From Ileibacterium valens (lineage in GTDB: Bacteria; Bacillota_I; Bacilli_A; Erysipelotrichales; Erysipelotrichaceae), in NCBI RefSeq assembly GCF_001945525.1, contig NZ_MPJW01000115.1, positions 1-40,752 on the forward strand: a stretch of DNA of 40,752 nucleotides, read 5' to 3'. Shown here in pieces: positions 6,884 to 40,752 of the stretch (positions within the stretch are counted from its first letter, which is position 1; each line of letters opens with the position of its first letter). The translations under genes were made by a program, and so were the position numbers. Under the pieces are notes generated by a model that saw only the letters and a list, made by a program, of their open reading frames with translations, had not been told where the DNA came from and made no database searches.

Positions 6884-7461
6884 TGAATACCTCTGTTTGT
6901 TGGAATCGTTCCAATACTGATAGTTGATCAAGTATTTTTGGCTTTTTTTGAATAAGACTTTTAACTTTATTGATTTTATCGACAATTTCATCTTGTTTCT
7001 TTATATCAGGAAGAGGGATCGTTATTTCATCAATATCACTATTTCTGATATTTTTATTATTCACTCCTACTGAACTCTCCGAAATAACTTGTCGGTATTT
7101 TTCACTATTAAAAAAACATCCAATATAATTCGGGTTTACCGTATTGTCTTTCACTCTAACAATTTTACAAAATGCTCCAAGCTATAATCCAGATTGTTTT
7201 CTGTTTGAGCCGACTTACCAACTAAGTTCTGACTTCCACTAGATCCACAAATCAGTATGTCTAGCTTTTTTAGTAATTGCCGTTCAGAAACTAAATTTTC
7301 GAGACGTAAATTAAATCATCAAAAGTAAGTATGTTATTTTTGATATTATTAGCTCTCAACAACCCGATAGCATTTGGATCACCTTTTTGTCTAATAAATG
7401 AAGGCTTATATGAAATCCCTCGAATCTGTTCTATTAAGTCGCCTAATCTTACCAATTTCAT
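6861..7461 (-). pseudogene. hsdS: Frameshifted one-TRD hsdS
   Basis: Reading the minus strand from ATG 7461 gives MKLVRLGDLIEQIRG and a normal TRD start. After DDLIYVS one base is missing (near 7303). The next frame continues ENLVSERQLLKKLDILICGS and SSGSQNLVGKSAQTENNLDY. A second single-base loss near 7160 is needed to reach GAFCKIVRVKDNT and the rest, ending NEKSEAN at 6861. Joined, these give a canonical HsdS N-terminal half with its coiled helix but no second TRD. Two independent frame losses indicate a decayed copy, unless they are sequencing errors. An AGAGG site lies 9 bases before the ATG, so expression was once normal. Confidence 0.75.
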
Positions 7462-7500
7462 TTCCATCAACCTCTTTCGTTATCCCAAACACGTAGAAAT

Positions 7501-8088
7501 TTAACCGATTAGAAAAAGCATATGTATCCAACCGCAAAGTCGGGATTTGACAAGTTCATCCAATTTGTTTTTATATTCGAGTAGTTCTCTAACTAAATTA
7601 TCCAGGAGAATTAATATATAAATTTCTGCTTTTTGAATTTCTATTTCTGGAACTTGAATTTCTAGATCAAGCATCTGTTCGGTTGGCACAACTCTTCTTC
7701 TTGCTGTCGTTCCTCTTAGTTTCTGCTTAAAATATTCCAATGCTTTTGGGCCATGAAGATATTGTTCAAGATACTTTGGTAGAACTACTTTTTGATCGAT
7801 ATCCCAAACTCCATACGCTGGACTCATGATTCCGCGATCAACAGTATTCTGAATGTAGTAAACTCCTTCATCCATTGGAAAGCCGATCACTAACTGATTT
7901 CGTTCAACAACTTTGTAATTGCTCTTGTCAACAGAAGCGATAGACTTTTTAAATCTTTCACTTTGTTTGATTATCCCAGACCGAGAGGTCATAGAAAGAA
8001 CTGGATAATCGTTAGAACCAGCTCTTTTAGTTTTTGAAGGCCTAATTAGCTTTCCTAATTTGAGCTTTTTATATTCAATAGGCCTCAT
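7501..8088 (-). CDS. hsdS: Half-length HsdS (one TRD), directly after hsdM
   Basis: The product has 195 residues: a single TRD ([17 protein letters not shown] onward, with RGTTARRRVVPTEQM) and the conserved helix ending NKLDELVKSR. The next codons should encode FIEMFG and a second TRD, but the sequence diverges into LCGWIHMLFLIG and stops. The break lies exactly at the repeat shared with the other hsdS copies. The ATG overlaps the hsdM stop (ATGA), so this is the copy best placed for expression. Half-size HsdS proteins can dimerise into a working specificity unit with a palindromic target (known for some type I enzymes), so it may be functional or may be a recombination remnant. Confidence 0.8.
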   Translation of the reverse strand: MRPIEYKKLKLGKLIRPSKTKRAGSNDYPVLSMTSRSGIIKQSERFKKSIASVDKSNYKVVERNQLVIGFPMDEGVYYIQNTVDRGIMSPAYGVWDIDQKVVLPKYLEQYLHGPKALEYFKQKLRGTTARRRVVPTEQMLDLEIQVPEIEIQKAEIYILILLDNLVRELLEYKNKLDELVKSRLCGWIHMLFLIG

Positions 8089-9626
8089 TTCTCCATATTC
8101 CCCTTCTTTTCAGTAAATTCTGCATCTAAAACATCAGTTCCAAGCATCTGTTCCAATTCTTTAAGATCTTGCTGAATTTTCATTTGCAGAATGTTAATTT
8201 GAGTCAGGATTTCTGATGTTGGTGGATATTCAACTTTTTCGTAGACAACTTCTTTGTATTTGTTGATGGAGAGGTCATAATCGTTCTTAACAATTTCTTC
8301 TTTAGGAACTAAGAAGCTTTGTTCAGTTCTCTTTCGTTCTTTTTCCTGATCAATATTTTTAAACCGTTCAATGATATCTGGAATATCGTTTTCTGTGATT
8401 GGTGATCTTTTATCATCCAGGCTGAATCCATCGTTTTTCATATCATAGAACCAGACATCGTCTGTTCCACCATAACCAGTTTTCTCAAAAATCAGAATTG
8501 CAGTGGAAACTCCGGCATAAGGTTTGAATACCCCAGAAGGCATGGAAATCACTGCTTTCAGTTTATTGTTTTCAATAATTTCCTTTCGAATGGCTTTATG
8601 AGCTTTTGATGAACCAAAAAGCACTCCATCTGGAACGATGCAGGTTGTTCTCCCACCCCTTTTAAGCATCTTTAAAAACAGTTCGAGAAACAGCAATTCT
8701 GTTTTCTTAGTTTTTGCGGTTTCTAAAAGATCATTGGATACACTGTCATAGTCAAGGCTTCCCTTAAACGGAGGATTAGCCAGAATCAAAGAATATTTTT
8801 CACGGTCAGGATTTTGATCTGTCAGAGAATCCCGATATTCAATATTTGGATGTTCAATACCATGAGTCATCATGTTCATGGCACCAATTCGAAGCATGGT
8901 TCGGTCCATATCAAAACCGGTAAACATCTCGTTCATATAATGCTTTCGATTTTCCGGGTTGAGTAATACTTCCTTTTTCTTGTTTTCTTTTAAATATTCA
9001 GCTGCTGCAACTAAGAAACCAGAGGTACCAGCAGCTGGATCGCAGATCATGTCATCAGGTTTGGGATCCATTAGATCAACCATCATTCGAATAATGTGTC
9101 TTGGAGTTCTGAACTGACCGTTTACTCCAGCTGTCGAGATTTTTGATAACAGATATTCATAGATATCTCCACGTGCATCCGGAGCATCCATCTTTTCATA
9201 AATTCCATCCATTGCGGTTACGATCTTCTGAAGCATCAATGGCGTAGGAACCTTGAAAATCGCATCCTGCATGTAGGTGGAATAGGCACTGTCTTTATTG
9301 CCATCCAGGTTCTTGATGAATGGAAATACTGATTCAGACATGTTCTGATACATCTGTTCAGCGCCCATGTCATGAAAGGTACTCCATTTCAGTTTTTCTT
9401 TATCAATTTCCCTGCCGTTGATTTCTTCTTTTCCTTCAAAAATGCTTTGATAGTCGATTCCCAGCATGTTTGCTGCTTTTTTATGTTCATTATCTGAGTC
9501 GTCAAGATCATGAATGAACATCAGATAGGTCATCTGTTCTATTACGTCAAGTGGATTGGTCAGACCTCCAGTCCAGAATATTTCCCACAGACTGTCAATT
9601 TTATTTTTCAGTTCGCCAGTAATCAT
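8085..9626 (-). CDS. hsdM: Type I restriction system adenine methyltransferase HsdM
   Basis: The product has 513 residues. An HsdM N-terminal helical domain is followed by an N6-adenine methyltransferase domain, with the SAM-binding motif DPAAGTSG at 196-203 and the catalytic motif NPPF at 284-287 (ILANPPFKG). It pairs with HsdS to modify host DNA and with HsdR to restrict foreign DNA. I chose ATG 9626: an AAGGAA site lies 9 bases before it, and the N-terminus aligns with the family. A longer ORF to 9704 would have to be read through a strong hairpin (9661-9689). It overlaps the following hsdS by 4 bases. Confidence 0.93.
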
Positions 9627-9660
9627 TTCATTCAATTCCTTTCCATTTGGCTGGAAGAAA

Positions 9661-9689
9661 AACAGGAAAGGTATTGCTCCTTTCCTGTT
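9661..9689 (-). terminator. Strong hairpin between hsdR and hsdM
   Basis: AACAGGAAAGG (9661-9671) and CCTTTCCTGTT (9679-9689) form a perfect 11-bp stem with a 7-base loop. On the minus strand a TTTTTCTT tract follows; on the plus strand TTTTTG follows. It looks like a functional terminator in both directions and lies only 35 bases before the hsdM start, so it may attenuate hsdM relative to hsdR. Confidence 0.75.
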
Positions 9690-9787
9690 TTTGATTGTAT
9701 TCATGCTTGATTATTTCACAAATTAACGAATATCAAAATAATCTATATCAAAGTAAGCATGGTATAACTTCGCTGCTCCGAATTAAA

Positions 9788-12700
9788 TCAGTTGAATAAG
9801 GCTTTTCGGTTAATATCCTCAATTCCTTTAGTAATAGATTCCAATTTCTTTTGGTCATTGGAAAATAACATGACTCCCCCGAAATCACTAAATGGAGACT
9901 GCATTAGAACCTGCTTTTTTAGCGTGCCATTGTAAGTGATATAGTCAATGACCTGATTCAGGAAATTGATCTGATCTTCATCAAGGCTGGCTTCATCAAT
10001 ATATTTTGCAAAAGCTTCTTTTGCTGCAACAGGATTTAAACCTGTAATACTTCGAACAAATTCACCTAACGGTCTGCTTGCAAATTCAGCTTCATAATCC
10101 GCTTTGGTTCCTAGTTCATCCCACATGATTCCTTCAAGCTGTTTAATATCCTTTTCGGTCAGTTCTTCATTATTTTTCAATTTGCGAATTGCTTCTGCAT
10201 CCTGATGTTCACGGATATAAGTTTCAGCTCTTTGTTTATAGCTCTTTAGTTCAATACTCTGAATATCACGCTGGGTAATCTTTGGATCAAGAAGCAGATC
10301 TTTATAGTCTGTTTCATATAAAGTAATCTTTTCCGGATTGATATACTTCATCAAGCTTCGCAATGAATTTCGAATGTTTTCCAGATCATCGATTTCATAC
10401 TGATCAAAGTTTTCAGTTTCAACTAAATGGTTGATCAGTTTTTCCTGTGCTTTAACTTCTGGAATATCCATCAAAGAACTCTGAAGTTGACTGGCTTTAT
10501 ACTGTAGATCTTGAAAAGCCGCTTTAGATTTCTTTCCATATAATCCAGCCAATTCAATTCCATATAACAAGGAATCAAAGCGGGTAGCAGTTATGTGATC
10601 ACTTGATGACTGTATAAGCTGAATTAGTTCTTTTGTAATCTTATTAATATCCGCTTTTTTCAGATTCTTATACCCTTCTGGATTCGAATAGCGGTCTACT
10701 AATTCAAGATGCTGAACAACATTAAAAGCCGATCGGTTCAGATTCTTTATCTGCCTCGACATAATATCAACAAGATGCTCTCGATATTTCTGAAGTTCAG
10801 GAGTCTGATATTCTGGTTCCTGAAGCTTGTAAACCATCTCAAACATGGTTTTAAAGATGGCTCCCTGAATTGGAATGGCCCCTCTAGCTTCAATTGGATT
10901 CTTGTTTTCTCTGAAAAATTCAAAGTTGCCCATGAAATCAAAAATTCGGAAAACCTTTTTATCTTTACCATCAATCAGTCCTGGACAGGTTCTGGTTCCC
11001 CGTCCGATCATCTGCCAGAATTTTGCTTTCGACATCACTTTTTTAAAGAAAACCAGATTCAGGATGCTTGGAACATCGACTCCTGTATCCATCATATCGA
11101 CCGATATGGCAATCTGTGGAAGCTTATTCGGATTTTCAAACTGTTCTTTTAAATGCATCACATCATAACAATAGTTATCGATGATCTGAGCAAAATCATC
11201 TCCAAGCTCAGGATATTCACTCTTGAATACATCAAGAATCATCTGAGCATGCTTATGGTTACGGGCAAAGATGATAGTTTTTCCAATTTTGTTGCCGTAA
11301 TCAACTTTCAAACCTTCCTGCATCAGAATACCAAGAACCTTACGGATCGTATCCTTATTGAAAAGAGTCTTGTTCATTTCAGAAGCTGAAATGTGATAAG
11401 GCAGTTTTCCTTCCTCATCTTCAAACTGGTCTTCGTAATCTTCTTTTTCCTCTTCCGTCAGATCATCGTAGGTAATTCCTTCATTGATGAATTTTGTTCC
11501 CGTTTCCACGGTTTCATAATCCACCAGATAGTGATCCTTTACGCCCTGTTCAAGCGTATAGGCATAGGTTGGATCTCCTTGCTCGACATCAAACAATTCA
11601 AAGGTATTGTGATCAATATCTTCTTTTGGCGTTGCGGTCAGCCCAATAATTGGAGTATCAAAATAGGTGAATATGTCTTTGAATTTGTTATAGATTGAGC
11701 GGTGAACTTCATCACAGATAATCAGATCGAAATGGCCCGGCGTAAAGACTCGTCCATTTTCGTCGCTGTAAGTATCGATTAATCCGATCATGGTCTGATA
11801 AGTTGAGCAGACGACTCTTGCATCGGGCTCTTTCTTATTGTCACATAAGTTGGTTACTGATACATTTGGCAGATTGTCGGTAATCGCCTTTTTGGCCTGT
11901 TTGACTAACATGGTTCGATCAGCAAGAAACAGGACATTTGTTACCCATCCCTTTTTGATCAGGTAATCAATCAATGCTGCAGCAGTTCTTGTTTTTCCTG
12001 AACCAGTCGCCATAACAAGAAGAGCTTTCCTCTTTTTCTTATCAAGTACAGAGCAAATTGCCTGAATGGCAGCCTTCTGATAATAACGTCCAGCAATCTT
12101 ATCGTCGCTGTGAACCGGAAAAAGAGGTTGTTTGAGTTTGCGAAGGTTAAAATACTTTTCAAGATCCGTTTTCGAATAAAAATCAGCAATTCTTCGTTCT
12201 GGATAATCATTGTCAATGATAGATGATCGGATTCCATTGCTTAAAAAGATAACCGGACGCCGTTTGTACTTTTTCGCGAGCTGATCAGCATACAATTTAG
12301 CCTGCTGACTTCCTTCATAAAGATCAACTGTTGTTTTCTTGGCTTCAATGATGGCAAGTGGAATTCCATCATCTCCATAAAGGACATAGTCGATTTTTCC
12401 TTTGCCAGATTTTGTTGGCATACCATAAACTTCAACTTCTTCAAGCCAGTTTTTTCCCTTAACCCATCCAGCATTTTCAAGCATCAGGTCAATATAGAGT
12501 TTTCTGGTTTCTGCTTCCGGAATAGGTTCTACGTAAGGCGGCTTCTTGAGATTATTCAATTGCTGATTTGCTGCTGAAAGCTGTTCCTTAAGCTGTTTAA
12601 TCAATTCAAGCTGTTTAGCATTTTCTTCTTTTGTTATTGGTTTATCTGCAGGGAGTTCAATCTTTTGTAGTTTCTCTTTTGGATTCAGCAATTCTGGATT

Positions 12701-13114
12701 GTATTGACGGCCTTCCTGATAAATGTTTGATCCTGGAGGTTCATAATTGTAGGCCATCCAGTCAAGCAGCTCGAAAAGAGTCCGCAGACTGATTTTCACT
12801 GCTGTTTCAGAAGGTTCCTTATTTTCATGAACTATCGCATTTCCCGCTTTTCTAATTAGATCCAGGCTCTTGAGCAGCTGAAATGGCATCAAATCACGAA
12901 TCTGATAATGCTTTAACAAGTCGATAAGTTTGGGATTGTCGCCTGCAGAAATATTCTCCATTGCGCAAAGGGATTTGAGTGTCAGTTCAATCGATTTTCG
13001 AATATTGAACATGGAGCTGACTTTACTGTATGGATAAACCAGCTCAGCTTCTCTTGCCGGTTTAACAAAGGGAGCGAATTCTTTAATCGGCAAAAGGTAG
13101 TCAAAATTTGTCAT
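9788..13114 (-). CDS. hsdR: Type I restriction endonuclease/translocase subunit HsdR
   Basis: The product has 1108 residues. The N-terminal ~125 residues resemble a DUF4145 domain. They are followed by a coiled segment (about 160-190) and a PD-(D/E)xK nuclease core with D242 in KIDYVLY and E257-x-K259 in IIEAKK. The SF2 helicase has Walker A ATGSGKT at 369-375, DEVH at 468-471 and TATP at 493-496. Later motifs include DMMDTGVDVPS and MIGRGTRTCP. HsdR translocates DNA and cleaves it when the M2S complex meets an unmodified site. The length is in the family range and no frame breaks are seen. It is the first gene of the minus-strand restriction cluster. Confidence 0.95.
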   Translation of the reverse strand: MTNFDYLLPIKEFAPFVKPAREAELVYPYSKVSSMFNIRKSIELTLKSLCAMENISAGDNPKLIDLLKHYQIRDLMPFQLLKSLDLIRKAGNAIVHENKEPSETAVKISLRTLFELLDWMAYNYEPPGSNIYQEGRQYNPELLNPKEKLQKIELPADKPITKEENAKQLELIKQLKEQLSAANQQLNNLKKPPYVEPIPEAETRKLYIDLMLENAGWVKGKNWLEEVEVYGMPTKSGKGKIDYVLYGDDGIPLAIIEAKKTTVDLYEGSQQAKLYADQLAKKYKRRPVIFLSNGIRSSIIDNDYPERRIADFYSKTDLEKYFNLRKLKQPLFPVHSDDKIAGRYYQKAAIQAICSVLDKKKRKALLVMATGSGKTRTAAALIDYLIKKGWVTNVLFLADRTMLVKQAKKAITDNLPNVSVTNLCDNKKEPDARVVCSTYQTMIGLIDTYSDENGRVFTPGHFDLIICDEVHRSIYNKFKDIFTYFDTPIIGLTATPKEDIDHNTFELFDVEQGDPTYAYTLEQGVKDHYLVDYETVETGTKFINEGITYDDLTEEEKEDYEDQFEDEEGKLPYHISASEMNKTLFNKDTIRKVLGILMQEGLKVDYGNKIGKTIIFARNHKHAQMILDVFKSEYPELGDDFAQIIDNYCYDVMHLKEQFENPNKLPQIAISVDMMDTGVDVPSILNLVFFKKVMSKAKFWQMIGRGTRTCPGLIDGKDKKVFRIFDFMGNFEFFRENKNPIEARGAIPIQGAIFKTMFEMVYKLQEPEYQTPELQKYREHLVDIMSRQIKNLNRSAFNVVQHLELVDRYSNPEGYKNLKKADINKITKELIQLIQSSSDHITATRFDSLLYGIELAGLYGKKSKAAFQDLQYKASQLQSSLMDIPEVKAQEKLINHLVETENFDQYEIDDLENIRNSLRSLMKYINPEKITLYETDYKDLLLDPKITQRDIQSIELKSYKQRAETYIREHQDAEAIRKLKNNEELTEKDIKQLEGIMWDELGTKADYEAEFASRPLGEFVRSITGLNPVAAKEAFAKYIDEASLDEDQINFLNQVIDYITYNGTLKKQVLMQSPFSDFGGVMLFSNDQKKLESITKGIEDINRKALFN

Positions 13115-13190
13115 ATCATCCCTGCCTTCCTTAAGTATGATCAGTTGAATCTTCAGCTGTCTGTAAATTTCAATCCGTAGTCAGGTTTAT

Positions 13191-13220
13191 TGTATCCTAA
13201 ATTTTTTAAAAGGATGAACA
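13191..13220 (-). promoter_or_regulatory. Candidate promoter of the restriction operon
   Basis: On the minus strand TTCATC (13215-13220) and TACAAT (13191-13196) are 18 bases apart, about 80 bases before hsdR. The -35 match is moderate. Confidence 0.35.
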
Positions 13221-13344
13221 TCACTGTGTTTGGATGTCATTTATTACTACAAAGATTTGTTGGCCATAGGTTCCACATCTGTTCGCCTCGCTTCGATTTT
13301 TCATTTTCAGGCATTTTCATTATGCTTTTCCCCAAAAAAATAAA

Positions 13345-13368
13345 GACCTCAGAACATATCCCGAGGTC
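13345..13368 (-). terminator. Terminator after the GNAT gene
   Basis: On the minus strand GACCTC / GAGGTC forms a stem followed by TTTATTTTTTT. It ends the acetyltransferase transcript before the hsdR promoter region. Confidence 0.75.
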
Positions 13369-13472
13369 ATTGTTTCATTGAGTATATTTTAGTGATCGAA
13401 ATATTAACTATATGTTGTTGCAAATCCCGTCTCTTTTTGAATTTATAATCAAGCAATATAATCAAGGAGGGA

Positions 13473-14120
13473 TTAGATTGCAACTCCCTCTTTAGCAAGC
13501 ACTTGTCTTCTTGCGTTTTCCCATCGCTTAACATTTTCTTCTTTCGATGTGGTTAAGCAATCTTCTTCATAGGAACCAAAACCCATTTTTTTATACATCC
13601 GAATCGCTGGCCATGATTGAGCCTGAGTCGACAGATAAAGACTCTTGTTTGGAAATTCCTGATGGAATTGGTGTATTGCCTGCTGCAGTACCATTCTTCC
13701 GTATCCTTTGGACTGATAATCAGGAGAGCTCATCATCCAGTGAACACGCATTCCATCTTCAAAATGCCTTCCAGGCCATATTCCTACAACAGACACCAGA
13801 TCATCATCTTCTGAAAGTAAAGCGAACAGGTGTGAGTCAAAAAACTCAGGATCCTGGTTTCTCATTCGATCAAATATTTCTTCTTCTGGAATATCATTAG
13901 GAAACTTTAACCGTCTCATCAAATCTGCCCATTTGTTTTTGAGATCTTTTACTTCGGATATTTTGGCAAACCGCACTGAATCAGGAAGATCTGGTTTAGT
14001 GATTTCGTCCATCTTTTCAGAAGGAATGATCATCAATAATTCTTCATAGGGGTAGCTATCATCCAGGACGACTGGCTTTCTGTTTTGCTCAAGAGTTTTA
14101 TTATGGTTCATTTTGTTCAT
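13473..14120 (-). CDS. GNAT-family N-acetyltransferase
   Basis: The product has 215 residues, with a GNAT fold in the C-terminal two-thirds. The acetyl-CoA pyrophosphate loop is visible as QSKGYGRMVL, the preceding strand is HWMMSSPDY, and the late helix region is WPAIRMYKKMGF. The N-terminal ~45 residues are polar and not part of the core. A GAGGC site precedes the ATG at 14120. It presumably acetylates an amine on a small molecule or protein, but the substrate cannot be read from the sequence. It is a single gene with its own terminator. Confidence 0.85.
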   Translation of the reverse strand: MNKMNHNKTLEQNRKPVVLDDSYPYEELLMIIPSEKMDEITKPDLPDSVRFAKISEVKDLKNKWADLMRRLKFPNDIPEEEIFDRMRNQDPEFFDSHLFALLSEDDDLVSVVGIWPGRHFEDGMRVHWMMSSPDYQSKGYGRMVLQQAIHQFHQEFPNKSLYLSTQAQSWPAIRMYKKMGFGSYEEDCLTTSKEENVKRWENARRQVLAKEGVAI

Positions 14121-14327
14121 TAAAATTTGCCTCTTTTCCTGTTTCTTTCATAAACTTAAAATTAATCTTAACCGACATTTCATCATTTACTGCATAATCT
14201 CTATTCGTTAGAAGTCCTTTTGAATCACTCAACTCATCTAATAGTCGCTCAGTGAGAAATCAGCCATTCTTTCACTCAGATTTCTTTAACAAATTAAGCA
14301 AGAAGTCATTCTTTTATATGATTTTAT

Positions 14328-14479
14328 TTTGGGTTTTCCTGATGTCGGCGTAATCAAAGAAAAAGACTCAGGAATTATCGAAGACTGTGTCGGGGTCCCG
14401 GTGTCCGACTCTGAATCAGATCATTGTTAATGCCGATACAAATTGGCTGGATGAAGAATCTGAGGGCATTGACTAATAA
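14328..14479 (+). pseudogene. Possible gene-tail remnant
   Basis: On the plus strand one frame reads GFPDVGVIKEKDSGIIEDC and VGVPVSDSESDHC, then stops. Another frame continues IVNADTNWLDEESEGID and a stop. The composition looks coding, and the two parts could be joined by one frameshift. No start or family was recognised. It may be chance. Confidence 0.25.
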
Positions 14480-14484
14480 GAAAA

Positions 14485-14525
14485 AAATGCGATCGAAGGT
14501 CTGCAAACAGTCTTCTTTCGCATTT
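14485..14525 (-). terminator. Terminator after the lipoprotein gene
   Basis: On the minus strand AAATGCGA / TCGCATTT, with an inner GAAG / CTTC pairing, is followed by TTTTTTTCTTATT. It lies directly after the lipoprotein stop codon. Confidence 0.85.
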
Positions 14526-14548
14526 GTATTTAGTAGACAATCTAAGAT

Positions 14549-15706
14549 TTATTTGGAATTATCTGCTTTCTGGTTATTCTGTTCTTTATTATTTGCTTCA
14601 GAATTTTCGGATTTTTCTTGATTGGTATTCTCAGTTTCGTTAGCCTCAGTTTTTTTGGCTGAATCTGCAGACTCCTTTTCTGCACTATCTTCAAAGGAGA
14701 CTGTAAATGTATCTCCCTTTTTAATTTTCTTATCACTTAATTCATTAAAGAAATTTTTGATTGAATCTTTCAGCTGACCAGGCGCTTTGAAAACCCGTAT
14801 ATCCTCATCATAGTAAACATCATCGGTCTGATCTTCAGAGCTCTTGACTTTCGAATAGTTGGAGTTGGTAATCTTGGAGATCACTCCTTCTTCATTCATT
14901 GTCATAGAGATTTCTACTCGCTCAGTCGTATATTCATCTGCCATTATGCTGCCATCACGAAGCAGATCTGTACGCTCTGTATTGTAAGTGTCTTTTGAAT
15001 AGTTATCTAAATATTCATTGAACTTATCCACATCTGCAATCTTGAAGGTAAAAGTGTAGTTCGCTCCTTCCTGAACCAGTGAATAATCATAAAAGTCAGG
15101 ATTTGAAGTTGGCGAGATAATCAAATCCGCTCCAAGATAAGAGAACATTGGAATCATAGCCGTATTTTTAACGACATCTGCGATTTCATCCGCTGAATAT
15201 TCAGTCACCTGGTCTTCAGTTTCAAAATCTTCCAGTTTAAATGTCATGGAAGGATCCGATGGAGTTCCATCTTCGACACTGGTATAGGCTGTTGTGATCG
15301 CCTTATTATCCGCCTTCATAAAGCCAACGTTATGGTTGTCCTGAACGGTCTGATCAAGGAATTCATAAACAGTCGAATTATCATCAGTTACTCTGTAATC
15401 ATAACTTTTTGAATGCATCGGGACTGTTTTAATGGATCCATCCTCTAAATCAAGCGTATTTCCTTCACCCGTATCGGAATACCCAATCTGATAATCGTAC
15501 GCTTCAGCTGTTTTGGTGATGACTTTTGCTAAAGCTGAAGTTACATCTTCGGCACTTGATTCAGAAGTAATTTTGGCTAAGCCTTTCATGATGTCATTGG
15601 GTGCGTTTTCGCTGGTAATTGTTTTCTTAGCTGCACACCCGCCTAGCGCAAACGAGCTGACCATAGCTGCAGCAGCCAGGATTGAACAAGTTTTCGCAAA
15701 ATGCAT
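14549..15706 (-). CDS. Predicted lipoprotein of unknown function
   Basis: The product has 385 residues. The N-terminus is a lipoprotein signal peptide with lipobox LGGC, placing the modified cysteine at residue 24. The mature part (about 30-330) is a mixed alpha/beta domain rich in acidic residues and resembles the large extracytoplasmic lipoproteins of Firmicutes with DUF6612-like folds; this assignment is uncertain. The last ~50 residues are a low-complexity tail rich in E, N, K, Q and S. It should be anchored to the outer face of the membrane. A GGAGG site lies before the ATG. It has its own strong terminator and sits behind the rpsO terminator, so it is a separate transcription unit. Confidence 0.8.
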   Translation of the reverse strand: MHFAKTCSILAAAAMVSSFALGGCAAKKTITSENAPNDIMKGLAKITSESSAEDVTSALAKVITKTAEAYDYQIGYSDTGEGNTLDLEDGSIKTVPMHSKSYDYRVTDDNSTVYEFLDQTVQDNHNVGFMKADNKAITTAYTSVEDGTPSDPSMTFKLEDFETEDQVTEYSADEIADVVKNTAMIPMFSYLGADLIISPTSNPDFYDYSLVQEGANYTFTFKIADVDKFNEYLDNYSKDTYNTERTDLLRDGSIMADEYTTERVEISMTMNEEGVISKITNSNYSKVKSSEDQTDDVYYDEDIRVFKAPGQLKDSIKNFFNELSDKKIKKGDTFTVSFEDSAEKESADSAKKTEANETENTNQEKSENSEANNKEQNNQKADNSK

Positions 15707-29441: not shown

Positions 29442-30449
29442 CTAATGAGTGTCATTTAGTGATGCCGAATTTGATTTTATGATTTCAAAAATGAAGTTTT
29501 CAAATCCTTCATCCTTATCCACCATTCCGCCTTTAATCGCCTGATCGAGCGAGGACAGATCATTCAGGGTACTGAGCAGTTCATTGGCAGAAAAGCGCGA
29601 GGCATTTTTTTTCGTGTTATATACTCTTCCGGAACTTGCATTCAGTTCTTTTGCAATCTGGTTTTGATCCATTCCCAAGTCCATCAATACCCGAACCTGA
29701 TAAACAAACCGGACCTGACTTGCCAGCAAAGCACAGATGGCTACTGGCTCCATTCCAGTAAATCGAAAGTTCCGGTATAAGGCCAGCAGCTTTAATCCCT
29801 GTCTGTTAAATAATGCATCCGTCATCTTGAAGACATTTTCAAGAGGCTCTAAAGTTGTCATCGCCATGACATCTTCAAGACTTAATTCCTTTCCATCCAG
29901 GGCAAAGATTGAAAATTTATCAAGCTCCATAGAGATCTTCGCCGTTTTCATTCCTGCATGAGCGATATACCAGCGAATGGCTTCTTCAGACATCTTCAGA
30001 TTTTTTTCCTTAATCATGGATCGAACCAAAGCAGGCATGTTCTTTTCCTCCGGAAGCTTGCACTCAATCATCCGGGCTTTTTTGGATAGTTCCTTGACCT
30101 TTTTCTTTCGGCCATCCAGCTTTGGCTTTTCGAGCATATAGACAATCCATCCATCATCAAGATCCAGATCGGCAATTTTATCCAGATCATAACCATGACT
30201 CTGTTCATTCGCGCTTAAAAAGTCCGCATTCGCCAATACAATCATTTTCCGTTCCGGAAACAACGAAACAGATACGGTTTCTGCATAGAAATCCCTGGGT
30301 TCATCTTTTGTAGCATCCAGACGCAGGTAAACATCCGGTTTAAATTCATTTCTGAGATGATCCAGTTTATATTGCATTCTTGAAGGATCATCTCCATATA
30401 TAATCGCAATCATCCCTTCCATATTCTCATGTTTTGAGAGTGAAGTCAT
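29442..30449 (-). CDS. holA: DNA polymerase III delta subunit
   Basis: The product has about 335 residues. The N-terminal part reads MIAIIYGDDPSRMQYKLDHL (family-typical GDDxxR region). The middle has the AAA+-like collar text (YMLEKPKLDGRKKKVKELSK), and the C-terminus is all-helical (AICALLASQVRFVYQVRVL). The delta subunit opens the beta clamp in the clamp loader. Its start is uncertain: the ATG at 30449, a TTG at 30452 and the better-conserved internal ATGs at 30422 or 30413 are all possible, and none has a strong ribosome site. It is convergent with rpsT. Confidence 0.92.
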   Translation of the reverse strand: MTSLSKHENMEGMIAIIYGDDPSRMQYKLDHLRNEFKPDVYLRLDATKDEPRDFYAETVSVSLFPERKMIVLANADFLSANEQSHGYDLDKIADLDLDDGWIVYMLEKPKLDGRKKKVKELSKKARMIECKLPEEKNMPALVRSMIKEKNLKMSEEAIRWYIAHAGMKTAKISMELDKFSIFALDGKELSLEDVMAMTTLEPLENVFKMTDALFNRQGLKLLALYRNFRFTGMEPVAICALLASQVRFVYQVRVLMDLGMDQNQIAKELNASSGRVYNTKKNASRFSANELLSTLNDLSSLDQAIKGGMVDKDEGFENFIFEIIKSNSASLNDTH

Positions 30450-30608
30450 CAAACATTCACATCTCGTCTTCTTTTGGCTGCCCTCATTCAGGCAAAGAAA
30501 TTCCCCATAATGCCCAGAAAAAAACAGTTTAGAAAGTTGTTTCTGATTGGCTTGAATCTTTTTCGTCCGATACGATGAAAAGCATAGAAGAAAGAGTGAG
30601 GTGATGGT

Positions 30609-35161: not shown

Positions 35162-37255
35162 TTACTTCCAAATATAACCGATCAATCCTGAATCCGTTTC
35201 AATGATCATAAGGTTTCTAAACGTTTTTAAATGAATGGCTCCATCGTTTGCGGTTGATAAAACATCACACCCTGACTCTTTAAGGTTTTCTAAGGTTTGT
35301 ATGTGTGGATGGCCATATCGATTGTTCTTGCCAGCTGAAATCAAAGCCAGTTCCGGTTTTACTTCTGATAAGAATTCTGGATCACTCGATGTATTTGAGC
35401 CATGGTGTCCGGCCTTCAAAACATCTGCATCAACCGTATATTCATGGATCAGTTCCCTTTCAATGGCTGAAGAGGCATCTCCTGTCCACAAAAACCGAAA
35501 GTTGTCATAAGCAAAGTAACTGATCAATGAAAGATCATTAATGTCTATATCCAGTTCTGTTATCTGTCCGTTTACTTTGTCATTTCCTTCGTCTATTTCT
35601 GTTTCTGAAAAACTGCTTTGCATAGCATTTGAATGAACTCCTGACTGTGAAGTAGTCCTTAAGGAATGAAAAGGATAATCAACAGGGATTTTCTGATCTG
35701 ACGAAGTGATTACTTCTTTAATTTCAATGTCCTGGTGATTAAGTAAATCCTCGACGCTTCCCGAATGATCAAAGTCATCATGAGAGATAACCAGAGCATC
35801 GATCGTATCAATGTGATGGCTTTTCAAAAACGGAACAATGATTTTTTCACTGTTATTTCGAAACCGATTGCCCGCCGCATCAATCATAACTACGCTCTTT
35901 TGAAAGGGTTCAATGATGACTGCACAATCTCCCTGGCCAATATCCAACTGATAAACATGAAAAAATGGATCCAGCCGAAACGAGAATAGATATAACAGGA
36001 ATGCCGAAGCAAACATCACTGGAGTTTTCTTGTCTGGTTTAAATACTCCATAGATCCAGGTCAGAATAAAAATCGCCATGATCAATGGATTGACCATTCC
36101 ATGAAAAGTCATCGAATTCAGGAAGTTCCATTCTCCAGACAAAACTTCAAACAGTAAGTTGGTTAAACATTCTGATTCAACAAATAAAAGACAAATCGTC
36201 AGTAAAAAGAAGAATCCAAACAAAGATCTCAGCTTACGATAACCAACAATCATCCATAGATTCAGGTTTGAAAAATAAATCGCCTGCATCATAAGCAAGC
36301 TGATTCTTTCCTGAATTTTTGCACATATCGAGTTATTTTGAAATTTTCGATTCAGCCATAAAATGAGCGGAAGGCATAGAGAAAATTCTGAATAATCGTT
36401 TGGAGATAACAGTAAAAACACGATTAAGGAACAGGGTACTCTCCAGTCTTTATGTTTATTCAAAAGAACTCGAAACAAAGTGAAGATAAAAAGGCGAAGC
36501 AATACCGTATTCCAAAAAAAGCATTCACCATAGATGACGATCAAAACCAGAACGATCCAGTCCATACAAACAAAACTAATATCCAGAAATCTTTTAAGGC
36601 CTTTACGAATCAGATCAAATAACCCTAAAAGCGGTAAGCCCATTCGGCTGATCCATTCTGAAACCTCTTTAAAGGAAATACCATAGAAAAACAATCGAAT
36701 CAGTTTTCCCTGCTTGCTTTCGGGATCAAAACGATTTGTTAGAGCACGATAGATTCTCGCTCGAAGAGAACCAGAGTCTGCAAATCTTTTCTGATTTTTC
36801 ATTGAAGATGAATATGCAATTCCTTTTTGCTTCATCCTCTTTTCAAAGGAAAATACACCGGGATTATTCAAGGATTCGATGCGATCAAATTGATTCAGTT
36901 CGATAACATCCTGAAAGACCAGATCTGAACTCTCATAGACGACAACTTCATGCTTAAGCTCACCAGAAGGATTCATACTTCTTGCGATCGCATAATTTGA
37001 ATGAATTGAAGTCACCAGATATTCTCCTGGTTCAGGTTCATTCATCTCAAGAGATCTGTTGATCTCAAGAGTGATGATTGAAAAGAGACTTAATATAGTC
37101 CAGACAACAACCGCAATGATCACCAAACGCTCATGACGAAATCTCAGAACCAGAAAAATCAGAATGACGACAGCACAAAACAGACGAATCAGAGGATCGC
37201 TAATCCATAAGAGCCCCCAGAAGAAAAACGCAAAAAGGAAAATCAGCGAATTCAC
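35162..37255 (-). CDS. comEC: Competence membrane channel protein ComEC
   Basis: The product has 697 residues. The N-terminal membrane segments and OB-like loop (about 1-130) are followed by a membrane competence domain (about 180-425) and a C-terminal metallo-beta-lactamase-like domain. The latter shows QLDIGQGDCAVI, HxDxDH at 492-497 (SHDDFDHSGS) and LKAGHHGS. ComEC passes single-stranded DNA into the cytoplasm in natural transformation. It overlaps comEA by 4 bases (ATGA). No comEB lies between the two, unlike in B. subtilis. Confidence 0.93.
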   Translation of the reverse strand: MNSLIFLFAFFFWGLLWISDPLIRLFCAVVILIFLVLRFRHERLVIIAVVVWTILSLFSIITLEINRSLEMNEPEPGEYLVTSIHSNYAIARSMNPSGELKHEVVVYESSDLVFQDVIELNQFDRIESLNNPGVFSFEKRMKQKGIAYSSSMKNQKRFADSGSLRARIYRALTNRFDPESKQGKLIRLFFYGISFKEVSEWISRMGLPLLGLFDLIRKGLKRFLDISFVCMDWIVLVLIVIYGECFFWNTVLLRLFIFTLFRVLLNKHKDWRVPCSLIVFLLLSPNDYSEFSLCLPLILWLNRKFQNNSICAKIQERISLLMMQAIYFSNLNLWMIVGYRKLRSLFGFFFLLTICLLFVESECLTNLLFEVLSGEWNFLNSMTFHGMVNPLIMAIFILTWIYGVFKPDKKTPVMFASAFLLYLFSFRLDPFFHVYQLDIGQGDCAVIIEPFQKSVVMIDAAGNRFRNNSEKIIVPFLKSHHIDTIDALVISHDDFDHSGSVEDLLNHQDIEIKEVITSSDQKIPVDYPFHSLRTTSQSGVHSNAMQSSFSETEIDEGNDKVNGQITELDIDINDLSLISYFAYDNFRFLWTGDASSAIERELIHEYTVDADVLKAGHHGSNTSSDPEFLSEVKPELALISAGKNNRYGHPHIQTLENLKESGCDVLSTANDGAIHLKTFRNLMIIETDSGLIGYIWK

Positions 37256-37746
37256 AGACAGATTTCCTCTTTAATTCGCTCAAACATTTTTTCTCCGATA
37301 CCCTTCACATTCATAATGTCTTCCAGCGTTTGAAATCCCTGACTCTCACGATACTCAATAATTCGTCCAGCGATCTTTTCACCAATCCCGCTAAGAGTCA
37401 TCAATTCTTCCAACGAGGCTGAGTTGATCGAAATCTTTGCTTTCTGCACTTTCGTTTGTGATTTGGGAATTACGATGACATCTTCATCCTTCACCTTTTT
37501 CATCAATGCGATGGAAGAAAGGTCAGCCTGTTCTGTCGTTCCTCCAGCGACCTGAATCAGTTTTTCGATGTCTGCATCTGTCTTTAGCTCATAAACTCCA
37601 GGTTGATTGACCTCTCCTTTAATTTCAGCCTGCAAAGACAGCGGACTAGCGCGATCAAGCGAAACCGGCTGATACCTTCCCCACCAGGAGTATCCAAAAA
37701 CAAGAACCAAAGTCAGACTGCCAAACAGTTTCTGAATGTTGTTCAT
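37252..37746 (-). CDS. comEA: Competence DNA receptor ComEA
   Basis: The product has 164 residues. One N-terminal membrane segment (about 5-20) is followed by a SLBB-like domain (EIKGEVNQPGVYEL) and a C-terminal helix-hairpin-helix pair (INSASLEELMTLSGIGEK, then IMNVKGIGEKMFERI) that binds double-stranded DNA at the cell surface. The start has an AGAAGG site and it is coupled to comEC. Upstream (37747-38083) there is no gene, apart from the promoter of the divergent flavoprotein gene. Confidence 0.93.
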   Translation of the reverse strand: MNNIQKLFGSLTLVLVFGYSWWGRYQPVSLDRASPLSLQAEIKGEVNQPGVYELKTDADIEKLIQVAGGTTEQADLSSIALMKKVKDEDVIVIPKSQTKVQKAKISINSASLEELMTLSGIGEKIAGRIIEYRESQGFQTLEDIMNVKGIGEKMFERIKEEICL

Positions 37747-37984
37747 GCCTTCTTATACACCGGATTTTGATCACTGAAAAAAAAATAATTACGAATAAAA
37801 AAGTTATGAACAGGAAAGTTAGCAGCAAGAAGAGAATTATGAATAAGGTACAGACAAGGCATTTACCTGTAAACCAAGAAGGAAAAATTATCATCTGTAT
37901 GAATGAATCTTGAAATGAGATTTACTACAGGAAGTCTGTTTCTTATCCGATCAGAAAATTTGACTTCAAGAAACAGAATTTGTT

Positions 37985-38012
37985 TTGAAGACATTGCTCA
38001 ACACGGTATATT
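37985..38012 (+). promoter_or_regulatory. Promoter of the PPOX-fold gene
   Basis: TTGAAG (37985-37990) and TATATT (38007-38012) have a 16-base spacer, about 70 bases before the ATG. Confidence 0.6.
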
Positions 38013-38083
38013 GTAATTGTCCATAGAAATGACCAAGAATCTTTGCAAAGAGAGAAAAAGAAATTAATCTGGAGGAAGGAAAA

Positions 38084-38677
38084 ATGATTCATTTTGAAAG
38101 AGAAGTCTGCGAACCCGATCTGATTGAAGCGATGCTTGATATGTTCGAAGTGGTTGTCCTGTCGCTTAATGACGATGATGGATATCCATACAGCGTTCCA
38201 GTGAACTTTGGTTATGAATGTTCTGATGATGGAATTACTTTCTATATTCACTTTATGAAGCGTGGACATAAAGTCGAACTGATGCGTAAGGATCCAAGAG
38301 TGACCTTACAGCTGTACGCTTGGAATGACTTCTTTGATCATCCATATAAAGGCCATAAACATGACTACCGAAGTGTCAGCGCCAAAGGAAATATCAGAAT
38401 TATCGATCTCAAGGAAAATCCTGAACTGTTTGAACATAGCTATCGTTTGCTCATGAGCTGCAATGGGCGAACTCCTAAGCCACTTTCCGAACACAAAGGC
38501 ATTAACGCAATGAATATTGGTGAGATTTTCTGTCCATGGGATAAAATCAGTGCAAAATCCGAATTCCCACTTCGAACGGTTGAAGATGTTCCGTTCATTA
38601 ACGTTTATGAAAGGCCTGAAGACAACACACCATTCGATATCAGCGATATTATCGCTAAAAGAAAAAAGCAGTCCTGA
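38084..38677 (+). CDS. Pyridoxamine-5'-phosphate oxidase-like flavoprotein
   Basis: The product has 197 residues with a split-barrel FMN-binding fold of the PPOX/NimA type: LSLNDDDGYPYSVPVNF at the start, ITFYIHFMKRGHKVELM in the middle, and SVSAKGNIRI. Such small flavoproteins reduce or bind flavins and nitro compounds, but the substrate is unknown. A GGAGGAAGG site precedes the ATG. It is monocistronic, with a terminator at its end. Confidence 0.8.
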   Translation: MIHFEREVCEPDLIEAMLDMFEVVVLSLNDDDGYPYSVPVNFGYECSDDGITFYIHFMKRGHKVELMRKDPRVTLQLYAWNDFFDHPYKGHKHDYRSVSAKGNIRIIDLKENPELFEHSYRLLMSCNGRTPKPLSEHKGINAMNIGEIFCPWDKISAKSEFPLRTVEDVPFINVYERPEDNTPFDISDIIAKRKKQS

Positions 38678-38723
38678 TATTCAACGTATTTTGAATCATA
38701 AAAAAGTATTCTGAAAAAAAATG

Positions 38724-38754
38724 AAGCCAGCGATCACCATTCGATCTCTGGCTT
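38724..38754. terminator. Bidirectional terminator between convergent genes
   Basis: AAGCCAG / CTGGCTT with inner GATC pairs forms a hairpin. On the minus strand TTCATTTTTTTT follows; on the plus strand only TTTAA. It probably serves the split kinase operon more than the flavoprotein gene. Confidence 0.7.
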
Positions 38755-38855
38755 TAATCCTATCCGTGTTTTGAAATGAATTTATATCCATTTCTCATTG
38801 CAAAGCTATCCGCCAAATAACAGCTGTTCCCGAATGGACACCTAACATGTGAACC

Positions 38856-39860
38856 TTATGAGGAGCTGACCTGGTCGCGTTTAAACAGCCGGCCAGTCAA
38901 AGAAAGCTTCGTTGAAATTGACGAATTTTCGATCTCAAGCAGCTGTGCCTGGATCTGCTCAAGCTTTTGCAGTGATTCATCTTCAAGAGGAGCATCCAGT
39001 TCTTTTTGAAGTGAATGTAAAATTTCAAGAGCCTGATGTGCCTTATCCTGTTTTAACAAGGCGCTTACTGTCAGCAGAACATTCTTATAATCATGACGGA
39101 TTTTCTGAATTTTCAGGTCATTTTCCCGAAGACTTTCGAAATACTGATCCTGAAAGCTCATTATTTCCTTTACATGACGAAGTTTGTCCAGTGTCGCTTT
39201 TCTGGCCATGATGCTTGCGATTAAAATGATGACAAACACAACCAGGAACAACGCGATGGAAATCTGGATAGACCGAACAACCATTTTATCGCCAGTTCGC
39301 AGTACTCGTACCAACAGAATCGAAGCCGGACCTAAAACCATAATAGCTAACAGAAGCGGTTTTGCGATTTTATCCCAGTTGATAAACGGCTGCCTTAGTA
39401 AAATGACAATTCCTGGTCTTAATAAAGCAAGCAGCAGGGTTCCAATCAGATAAATCTGCAAATGGATTTCCTGAGAATAATCAATTGAAACAACAGTTTT
39501 CGCTGGAATACAGCTTAAGACGATTACTTCTGCCAGAACGTTGCTGATCTGACAAACAAAAACCCAGAATATAAGATCTTTCCACTTCGCTTTGTAAAAC
39601 ACTTTAATTAAACAGGACACTCCAACCAGATTCAGGATCAGGCTTGCAACCGGTTGAAGTCTGACACGGTTTGGATATCCTGGCATGACTAATAAAAGAC
39701 TTAAAACCCAGAAACAAAAGACACGTCCTGCAGCTTTCAGCCAGTATCTCTTCTGGTCTGTCTGACTTTTTCCAAAAGCCATTTCCATCATAATTCCAAC
39801 AAATAAGCCATCCAGACTGACTAGAAAATATTGCAGGAAAAATTCTAAATCTATACTCAT
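38856..39860 (-). CDS. Membrane sensor with histidine-containing DHp helix, no ATPase domain
   Basis: The product has 334 residues. About six to seven membrane segments span 1-218, in the style of AgrC/peptide-sensing kinases. A cytoplasmic helix follows, with the phosphoacceptor motif RHDYKN (H256 to N260), and then a second DHp helix (HQALEILHSLQKELDA). The protein ends at RDQVSSS without any N-box or G-box, so it lacks the catalytic ATPase domain of a normal histidine kinase. Its ATG overlaps the stop of the preceding ATPase gene by 4 bases. I infer that the two products form one kinase in two chains. No response regulator is in the window. Confidence 0.8.
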   Translation of the reverse strand: MSIDLEFFLQYFLVSLDGLFVGIMMEMAFGKSQTDQKRYWLKAAGRVFCFWVLSLLLVMPGYPNRVRLQPVASLILNLVGVSCLIKVFYKAKWKDLIFWVFVCQISNVLAEVIVLSCIPAKTVVSIDYSQEIHLQIYLIGTLLLALLRPGIVILLRQPFINWDKIAKPLLLAIMVLGPASILLVRVLRTGDKMVVRSIQISIALFLVVFVIILIASIMARKATLDKLRHVKEIMSFQDQYFESLRENDLKIQKIRHDYKNVLLTVSALLKQDKAHQALEILHSLQKELDAPLEDESLQKLEQIQAQLLEIENSSISTKLSLTGRLFKRDQVSSS

Positions 39861-40492
39861 ACGCTGCTGTTATTCACCAACCCTTTCGAAAATTCAAGTT
39901 TTGAAGCGGACTTCTGATTCGTCAAGTGAATTAAGGCTTCATATCGATTGCTGCCAACATATTCACCACTGAAATTTCCATCGTATTTTCTGGCAACCGA
40001 TCGTAAGATCTGCTGACCATATCCCTGTCCATAAATCTTCTTCTCCTTATTCTGAAGAGCCGTATTGCTGCAGGTAATCACCAACAGATCCCGAAGCAAT
40101 CGACCTTCCAGTTCGATCATGGGCGTATGTTTCTTTATATCTGTTTGTATATCTGTTTTCCGTTGATCTAAATTGATACGATCCAGATACTTGCTATCAC
40201 CAGCTTCTGCTTCTTTTTGAAATTGAATGCAGGAACGAATGGCATTATCGAGAAGATTTCCGAGAATTCTGCATAAATCGAGTGGATCAATCTCAAGTTC
40301 AGCCGGAATTTTTAATTCAGTTTTCAAAGCAATTCCATTCTTATTTGCTTCATGCGCTTTTGCAAAAACAATCGCATTCACGACCCGATTGACTGAGTAA
40401 CTTTTCTTTTTGCCGCTGGTCTGATCCTTGATCTCCTGATTTGCCATTTCAATTGCTTTTTTTGGTTGACCGCTTTGAACCTGATTAATCAA
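39857..40492 (-). CDS. Standalone GHKL ATPase (kinase catalytic) domain
   Basis: The product has 211 residues. An HATPase_c_5-type domain has the N-box ILGNLLDNAIRSC (about 76-88) and the glycine-rich lid GQGYGQQIL (about 150-158). The N-terminal ~40 residues resemble the end of a DHp helix (GQPKKAIEMANQEI). No phosphoacceptor histidine is present. The best start is TTG 40492; upstream in-frame codons run only back to a stop, with no ATG and a weak ribosome site. It lies before, and overlaps by 4 bases, the membrane sensor gene. Alternatively it is a 5'-truncated remnant of a former full kinase. Confidence 0.75.
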   Translation of the reverse strand: MINQVQSGQPKKAIEMANQEIKDQTSGKKKSYSVNRVVNAIVFAKAHEANKNGIALKTELKIPAELEIDPLDLCRILGNLLDNAIRSCIQFQKEAEAGDSKYLDRINLDQRKTDIQTDIKKHTPMIELEGRLLRDLLVITCSNTALQNKEKKIYGQGYGQQILRSVARKYDGNFSGEYVGSNRYEALIHLTNQKSASKLEFSKGLVNNSSV

Positions 40493-40629
40493 ACTTTCTA
40501 TAGATGAAGAATAGCAATGTCGTTAAGTTAAGGAGTGTCTTCCATGCGGAATTCGCTCCTCGTTTTTTTGATTTTTAACACAAGCAGTGGAGTTGCTCCA
40601 AAAGTTTATAAATTATCCGAATATGGCAC

Positions 40630-40657
40630 TTGACAGACCGAAGCTCGGAACTAATCC
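40630..40657 (+). promoter_or_regulatory. Candidate promoter at the right edge
   Basis: TTGACA (40630-40635) and TAATCC (40652-40657) have a 16-base spacer. The -10 match is weak. Confidence 0.35.
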
Positions 40658-40687
40658 ATAATCCGAAGGATTTCGGAGGTGGTTATT

Positions 40688-40752
40688 TTGACCCATTCGA
40701 AATCCCCTAAACAGTATCGCCAAATCTTCTATTCTTACCTGGACGGTCTGGC
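40688..40752 (+). CDS. 5' end of a gene running off the right edge (TTG start)
   Basis: GGAGG lies 8 bases before a TTG, and the frame then stays open to the edge (MTHSKSPKQYRQIFYSYL). Only about 21 residues are visible, with no family recognised. Confidence 0.4.
   Translation, partial: MTHSKSPKQYRQIFYSYLDGL

Follow-up and report, generated by a model that had tools for sequence, protein, structure and literature searches.

A receptor chain with the histidine and an ATPase chain without it: a probable split AgrC-type histidine kinase in Ileibacterium valens

In AgrC/LytTR two-component systems, a multi-pass sensor, a SPOB_a-like DHp region, and a HATPase_c_5 domain are found together with a LytTR regulator, and the phosphorylated histidine and the ATPase lie on one polypeptide. 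Histidine kinases form dimers in which the histidine of one protomer can be phosphorylated by the ATPase of its partner. At the end of the window analyzed here (the whole stretch of 40,752 nucleotides, on contig C11 of the I. valens genome, G000), the sensor, DHp, and ATPase parts are of this type, but the histidine and the ATPase are on separate chains, encoded by two overlapping genes with the ATPase gene first, the reverse of the domain order within an ordinary kinase. Does this locus belong to a kinase made of two chains, or is it what remains of two ordinary kinases? A preliminary description had offered both answers. Our reading, to which we give a probability of about 0.7, is that the membrane protein (ORF B) is the receptor and histidine subunit of a split AgrC-type histidine kinase, and that its neighbor (ORF A) is the remnant of the catalytic subunit.

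Two overlapping genes and an insertion sequence

Both genes are on the minus strand. In the window's ORF listing, ORF A (39857-40492, 211 aa, TTG start) and ORF B (38856-39860, 334 aa, ATG start) share four bases, ATGA (39857-39860, minus strand), in which the stop of ORF A meets the start of ORF B; judging from this arrangement, the two are likely translationally coupled. ORF A matches HATPase_c_5/GHKL above the cut-off (E = 2e-8; 39965-40288, minus strand, N box NLLDNAIRS), as an AgrC-type kinase should, and has neither a membrane part nor a histidine part. From the sequence, the domain match, and a comparison with the paralogues described below, the kinase gene's 3′ part, comprising DHp helix 2 and the GHKL ATPase, occupies 39857-40514 (minus strand). 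ORF B is an AgrC-like multi-pass membrane sensor without an ATPase domain. Its residues 76-274 match the NCBIfam AgrC model (E = 1.8e-10; 40.6 bits, against an equivalog cut-off of 500 bits), and its match to SPOB_a is weak and below the cut-off (E = 0.0014). As in AgrC-type kinases, it carries an RHDxxN phospho-histidine box, RHDYKN (HDxxN), with the histidine at residue 256, and the H256 codon (39093-39095, minus strand) is the predicted phosphorylation site, since the same motif occupies the phospho-histidine column of 55 full kinases. A domain search found no ATPase in ORF B, and a profile search in all frames of 38600-38990 found no ATPase remnant 3′ of it, including in the gap to the convergent gene (38678-38855, minus strand). 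The tail of ORF B (GRLFKRD) seemed by eye to resemble GRLFRDL of a paralogue's ATPase, and this candidate was dropped when the profile search came back empty. The preliminary description was therefore right that the ATPase and the H256 membrane sensor are separate, overlapping frames, and that neither holds the other's missing part. No RNA element was found at the gathering threshold in 37500-40752. Adjoining the kinase region, overlapping ComEA-like (SLBB, HHH_3) and ComEC-like (Lactamase_B domain) genes occupy 35162-37746, and a DNA polymerase III delta gene lies at 29442-30452.

The lone ATPase gene is explained by an insertion sequence, and is ordinary in that respect. Bases 40515-40752 (plus strand, beginning CAATGTCGTTAAGTTAAGG...) have 22 matches in the same genome, the window itself included, two of them diverged. 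Across 20 retrieved copies, one of which is the window's, the repeat always starts at the position that corresponds to 40515, whereas the bases preceding it differ. A mobile element therefore has its end at 40515, where it cuts the kinase frame; the initial bases of the repeat are identical across the 20 copies, bar one single-base variant. At least 20 copies are thus present in the genome, and a number of its 291 contigs (for example, C236, C29, and C260) begin or end within the element. The window stops at 40752 because contig C11, too, breaks inside this repeat. A 134-aa fragment of the element had no Pfam match by which to name its family.

Given that the frame is cut at 40515, ORF A is the 3′ piece, beginning near DHp helix 2, of what was a longer kinase gene, and its truncation by the insertion sequence is certain. 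Its TTG is merely the first start codon past the junction. The insertion point falls at the histidine box of the gene, and a search of the assembly did not recover the lost 5′ part. The alternative that the preliminary description had set against a two-chain kinase, a deletion between two tandem kinases, did not produce this locus: ORF A lost its 5′ part to the insertion sequence, and ORF B is separately without an ATPase end. Because the catalytic gene is cut inside the DHp region, leaving a fragment without DHp helix 1 and without a convincing start, the local ORF A/ORF B pair cannot be the full system, and the window's copy is at least locally broken. Since ORF B is likely coupled through ATGA to the cut gene, its translation may also be reduced.

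Intact paralogues without the histidine

Searches of the I. valens genome with ORF B and with one kinase of contig C28 returned only ORF A, ORF B, and two C28 genes arranged in tandem (L008:4062-5432, 456 aa as listed, and L008:5635-6996, 453 aa as listed). Both C28 kinases keep the membrane part, the DHp, and the ATPase, and at the phospho-histidine position they read RDNYSN and LNDCRE, with D or N instead of the histidine of RHDYKN in ORF B. ORF A is about 70% identical to the ATPase end of the first (66% over the aligned length in a separate comparison) and about 61% identical to that of the second, and ORF B aligns with the first 280 residues (membrane part and DHp) of these kinases at 23-27% identity. 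ORF B carries the histidine that the C28 chains lost, but is without their ATPase, and a histidine box and a GHKL ATPase occur on a single chain in none of ORF A, ORF B, and the C28 chains. Between ORF B and the C28 chains, acceptor histidine and ATPase are on separate proteins, each without the other part; ORF A's own histidine position was lost to the insertion. Because the histidine-less ATPase chains and the ATPase-less histidine chain are complementary, they suggest an AgrC/GHKL kinase that was ancestrally split. The dN/dS between the two C28 chains is 0.17, that is, they are under purifying selection.

These alignments also bear on whether a sequencing or assembly artefact has split one full kinase into two frames. 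The contig does end just upstream, in a repeat, yet the ATPase portion comes ahead of the sensor portion, an order that no frameshift can join into one kinase, and each of the two ORFs aligns with its own region of the C28 chains, all of which makes an artefact very hard to credit.

The genome has nine HATPase_c_5 places, three of which are the ORF A/C28 family; one of the other six, the C40 kinase, is by eye of the ordinary HisKA type. Contig C28 (7.8 kb) has no histidine chain beside its kinase genes and no regulator next to them. On another contig, C243 (L113:720-2716), a LytTR regulator gene is followed by the gene for a 429-aa membrane protein that has no Pfam match and neither a recognizable histidine box nor an ATPase motif, possibly a fully degenerate sensor.

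Split loci in related genomes

Among the hits of the ORF B and C28 queries in 272 family genomes were several loci that combine a regulator, an ATPase ORF without a histidine box, and a membrane ORF with such a box near its C-terminus. ORF B itself had only weak matches in these genomes outside its own (best, 3.8e-9), and wider genomic and viral contig collections yielded nothing closely related to either ORF B or the ATPase chains. A profile built from six split ATPase chains was run on the 272 family genomes, and then on all 315 genomes of an order search. In the 315 genomes, 17 places scored at E = 1.6e-49 or better and were set off by a gap from the ordinary full kinases, which start at 1.4e-34. 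The 17 places span 11 genera and two families. One or more adjacent membrane histidine chains were found in 16 of them (G142 is without any), and, if the six seeds of the profile are set aside, in 10 of the remaining 11. In an evenly drawn sample of the class, the clade occurred in 4 of 395 genomes, all of the same order as the window's genome, with one more place at 6e-36 that has a 472-aa frame. The C28 chains score like ordinary kinases against this profile (9.8e-28 and 9.6e-25) and fall outside the main split clade.

The ATPase gene stands before the histidine chain in seven clade genomes (G086, G082, G157, G162, G003, G141, and G262, the last with a frameshifted ATPase gene), after it in G202, G274, G276, G287, G288, G311, and G199, and between histidine chains in G156 and G203. 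The inverted order stressed in the preliminary description, and which it had suggested seeking in relatives, is thus present in the window and recurs elsewhere, but is not special: it is the division of parts, and not gene order, that is diagnostic of split kinases. Two full-length kinases at the locus in relatives had been named there as the mark of a deletion product; none were found, but neither was an orthologous locus, the split loci of relatives not being orthologous to that of the window. Seven loci (G086, G156, G162, G141, G199, G203, and G262) have two to four histidine chains beside one ATPase gene, with up to three per intact ATPase gene and four in G262, where the ATPase gene is broken. 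Three to four sensor genes accompany one ATPase gene at L155:7688-10912 (G086), L167:6943-10071 (G262), and L158:4731-7857 (G156). The split ATPase chain of G311 (L149/L162) keeps KHD at the phospho-histidine column with a normal histidine chain next door, and is maybe an intermediate stage; that of G003 aligns ambiguously there (QHLL).

As a control, 79 distinct ATPase-bearing ORFs, from full kinases as well as split chains, were put into one alignment of the DHp and ATPase. A residue could be read at the histidine column in 76; it was absent in ORF A, L098 (contig edge), and L122 (frameshifted). Of these 76, 19 had no histidine and 57 had one, and L044 and L149, the G003 and G311 chains with a histidine letter at the column of a split locus, were placed in neither group, leaving 55. 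An adjacent membrane ORF with only the histidine part was found beside 16 of the 19 histidine-less ATPase ORFs vs. 0 of the 55 histidine-bearing ones (Fisher p = 1.4e-13, descriptive only). The same motif rule was applied to both groups, and the fractions are no estimate of prevalence, as rows are related and loci entered the set through their resemblance to ORF B, to one of the C28 kinases, or to split chains. The three exceptions among the 19 are the two C28 genes and G142. A stricter histidine-box profile, which misses chains that end right after the histidine, gave 8/19 vs. 0/55.

We compiled 32 histidine chains in 20 genomes, ORF B included. All have HDxxN except one, which reads HDLIH. 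The chain ends 9-39 aa past the histidine in 31 of the 32, and in ORF B the tail is 78 aa, longer than in any of the others; the histidine chains thus retain DHp helix 1 and for the most part lack what comes after it. The split chains of relatives are under purifying selection: dN/dS is 0.08 for the ATPase chain and 0.21 for the histidine chain (partial) between G274 and G276, and 0.15 for the ATPase chain between G287 and G288, where dS of the histidine chain is saturated. When six histidine chains (ORF B and five others) were scanned with Pfam, only the 129-aa chain of G238 passed the family cut-off (SPOB_a), so receptors of the split type are likely filed as hypothetical membrane proteins.

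These comparisons weigh on the alternative of simple decay, in which two tandem ordinary kinases were damaged, one through the insertion and the other through loss of its 3′ end, leaving products that are now idle. The certain insertion in ORF A's gene, in a genome with no fewer than 20 copies of the element, fits such a history, as do the missing ATPase and odd tail of ORF B. However, ORF B is open across 334 codons with its histidine box intact, the C28 paralogues are likewise histidine-less while intact and under selection, and none of the 55 ordinary kinases has a neighbor with only the histidine part. We consider decay unlikely. As for the two-chain kinase of the preliminary description, the histidine-less C28 paralogues and the recurrent split pairs of relatives speak for it as the ancestral design, though not as an intact pair in the window, where the ATPase gene is cut.

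A quick maximum-likelihood tree was built from 76 ATPase domains, leaving out two fragments and one row that was too short. It joins 16 split chains in a single group (SH-aLRT 96) and places ORF A with the C28 chains in another (100), which lies outside the first and has as its sister the histidine-less chain of G238 (SH-aLRT 80); two further split chains are placed apart. The tree needs at least four changes (shuffled mean 19.2), of which well-supported branches force only one. The G238 locus consists of a regulator, a 129-aa membrane ORF with only the histidine part, and a 427-aa histidine-less kinase. Among the loci compared, its regulator and that of contig C265 in the window's genome each have the other as best match (36%, 7e-47; next, 2e-25), and the next three matches of the C265 regulator are also from contigs with split loci (G202, G003, and G281). 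Since ATPase and regulator point to the same relative, the C265 regulator is the likely target of the ORF B/C28 system, as far as sequence comparison can indicate. The ends of C265 (L111:1-220) and C28 (L008:2-778) resemble pieces of an IS110-type transposase, and one such copy could separate the regulator from the C28 kinases, both running in the same direction.

Known systems and a proposed mechanism

By analogy, the closest tested precedent is FasB/FasC of Streptococcus pyogenes. As given in the portions of PMC12675982 drawn on here, these are two kinase-like chains with six transmembrane segments each, encoded in one operon with the ATPase partner first and the histidine partner second; they form a heterodimer in a two-hybrid assay, and their output passes through the response regulator FasA. 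H246 of FasC is needed while the FasC ATPase domain is dispensable, the DHp and ATPase of FasB are enough, and FasC1-286, which ends 40 residues past H246, gives full complementation when plasmid-borne and also functions at its native locus (PMC12675982). The likeness lies in the labor of histidine and ATPase being divided between two chains with adjacent genes. In the window, ORF A and ORF B overlap, and an adjoining regulator gene would lie past the contig end. By the same portions of that source, however, FasC retains an ATPase-like domain and FasB retains histidine residues, whereas here the histidine chain has no ATPase domain, the intact ATPase chains have no histidine, and relatives have several histidine chains per ATPase chain.

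Two other systems are more distant. CheA3/CheA4 of Rhodobacter sphaeroides, as described in the parts of PMC3591291 consulted, also form one kinase from two proteins that hold the phospho-acceptor and the catalytic parts, but they belong to the CheA class with a P1 domain, and are neither membrane receptors nor of the GHKL/LytTR type. Hik36/Hik43 of Synechocystis are termed a split histidine kinase in the excerpts of PMC7656254 used here, with genes apart in the genome, but are of the CheA/PilL type and HPt-based. In the literature searched, a scope that left out most subscription journals and all preprints, we found no description of a natural AgrC/LytTR-type kinase divided into a histidine-only and an ATPase-only chain.

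The split-kinase reading is supported by domain content, by the insertion point, by the loss of the histidine in the C28 chains, by the recurrence and co-occurrence of complementary chains, and by purifying selection in relatives. For its working, we infer that an ATPase chain and a histidine chain, both membrane proteins, would pair via their DHp helices as a heterodimer. The signal would be read by the membrane part of the histidine chain, or in the C28 type perhaps by both chains, and the ATPase of the histidine-less chain would phosphorylate, in trans, the histidine of the ATPase-less chain, from which the phosphate would pass to a LytTR response regulator. If the system functions in this strain at present, the intact C28 catalytic paralogues, having no histidine of their own, could still use H256, and ORF B could still be serving them, with the C265 regulator as a putative partner.

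The histidine chain may also have a phosphatase role, which its HDxxN motif (named in the parts of PMC3591291 consulted) predicts. A stronger form of this idea would make ORF B a phosphatase or decoy, a negative regulator that drains phosphate from the regulator or blocks another kinase rather than donating phosphate. This is quite improbable, because the intact AgrC-type ATPase chains of the genome are histidine-less and would have no acceptor without ORF B, and, in the FasBC results reported in PMC12675982 and drawn on here, the histidine chain is required for output.

Receptors of different kinds would compete for the engine wherever one ATPase chain is shared among several histidine chains. 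This leads to a broader model, for which we see slightly better than even odds, of modular receptor kinases in which one histidine-less ATPase subunit is common to several interchangeable histidine-bearing receptors, whose signals would compete for a common engine and a single LytTR regulator. In the window's genome, the arrangement would be the converse, with one histidine chain, ORF B, serving two intact ATPase chains. A catalytic subunit common to several receptors, in place of a closed homodimer, would change how signaling specificity is counted. Modeling has suggested that split bifunctional kinases can yield ultrasensitive or bistable switches (PMC3591291, in the parts consulted), and split loci with HDxxN histidine chains would offer natural membrane receptors on which to test this. 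Large secreted repeat proteins or lipoproteins were seen by eye to flank split loci (L155:3247-6708 and 11197-15646; L166:1219-3078 and 7323-12075), and are possible targets of the regulators.
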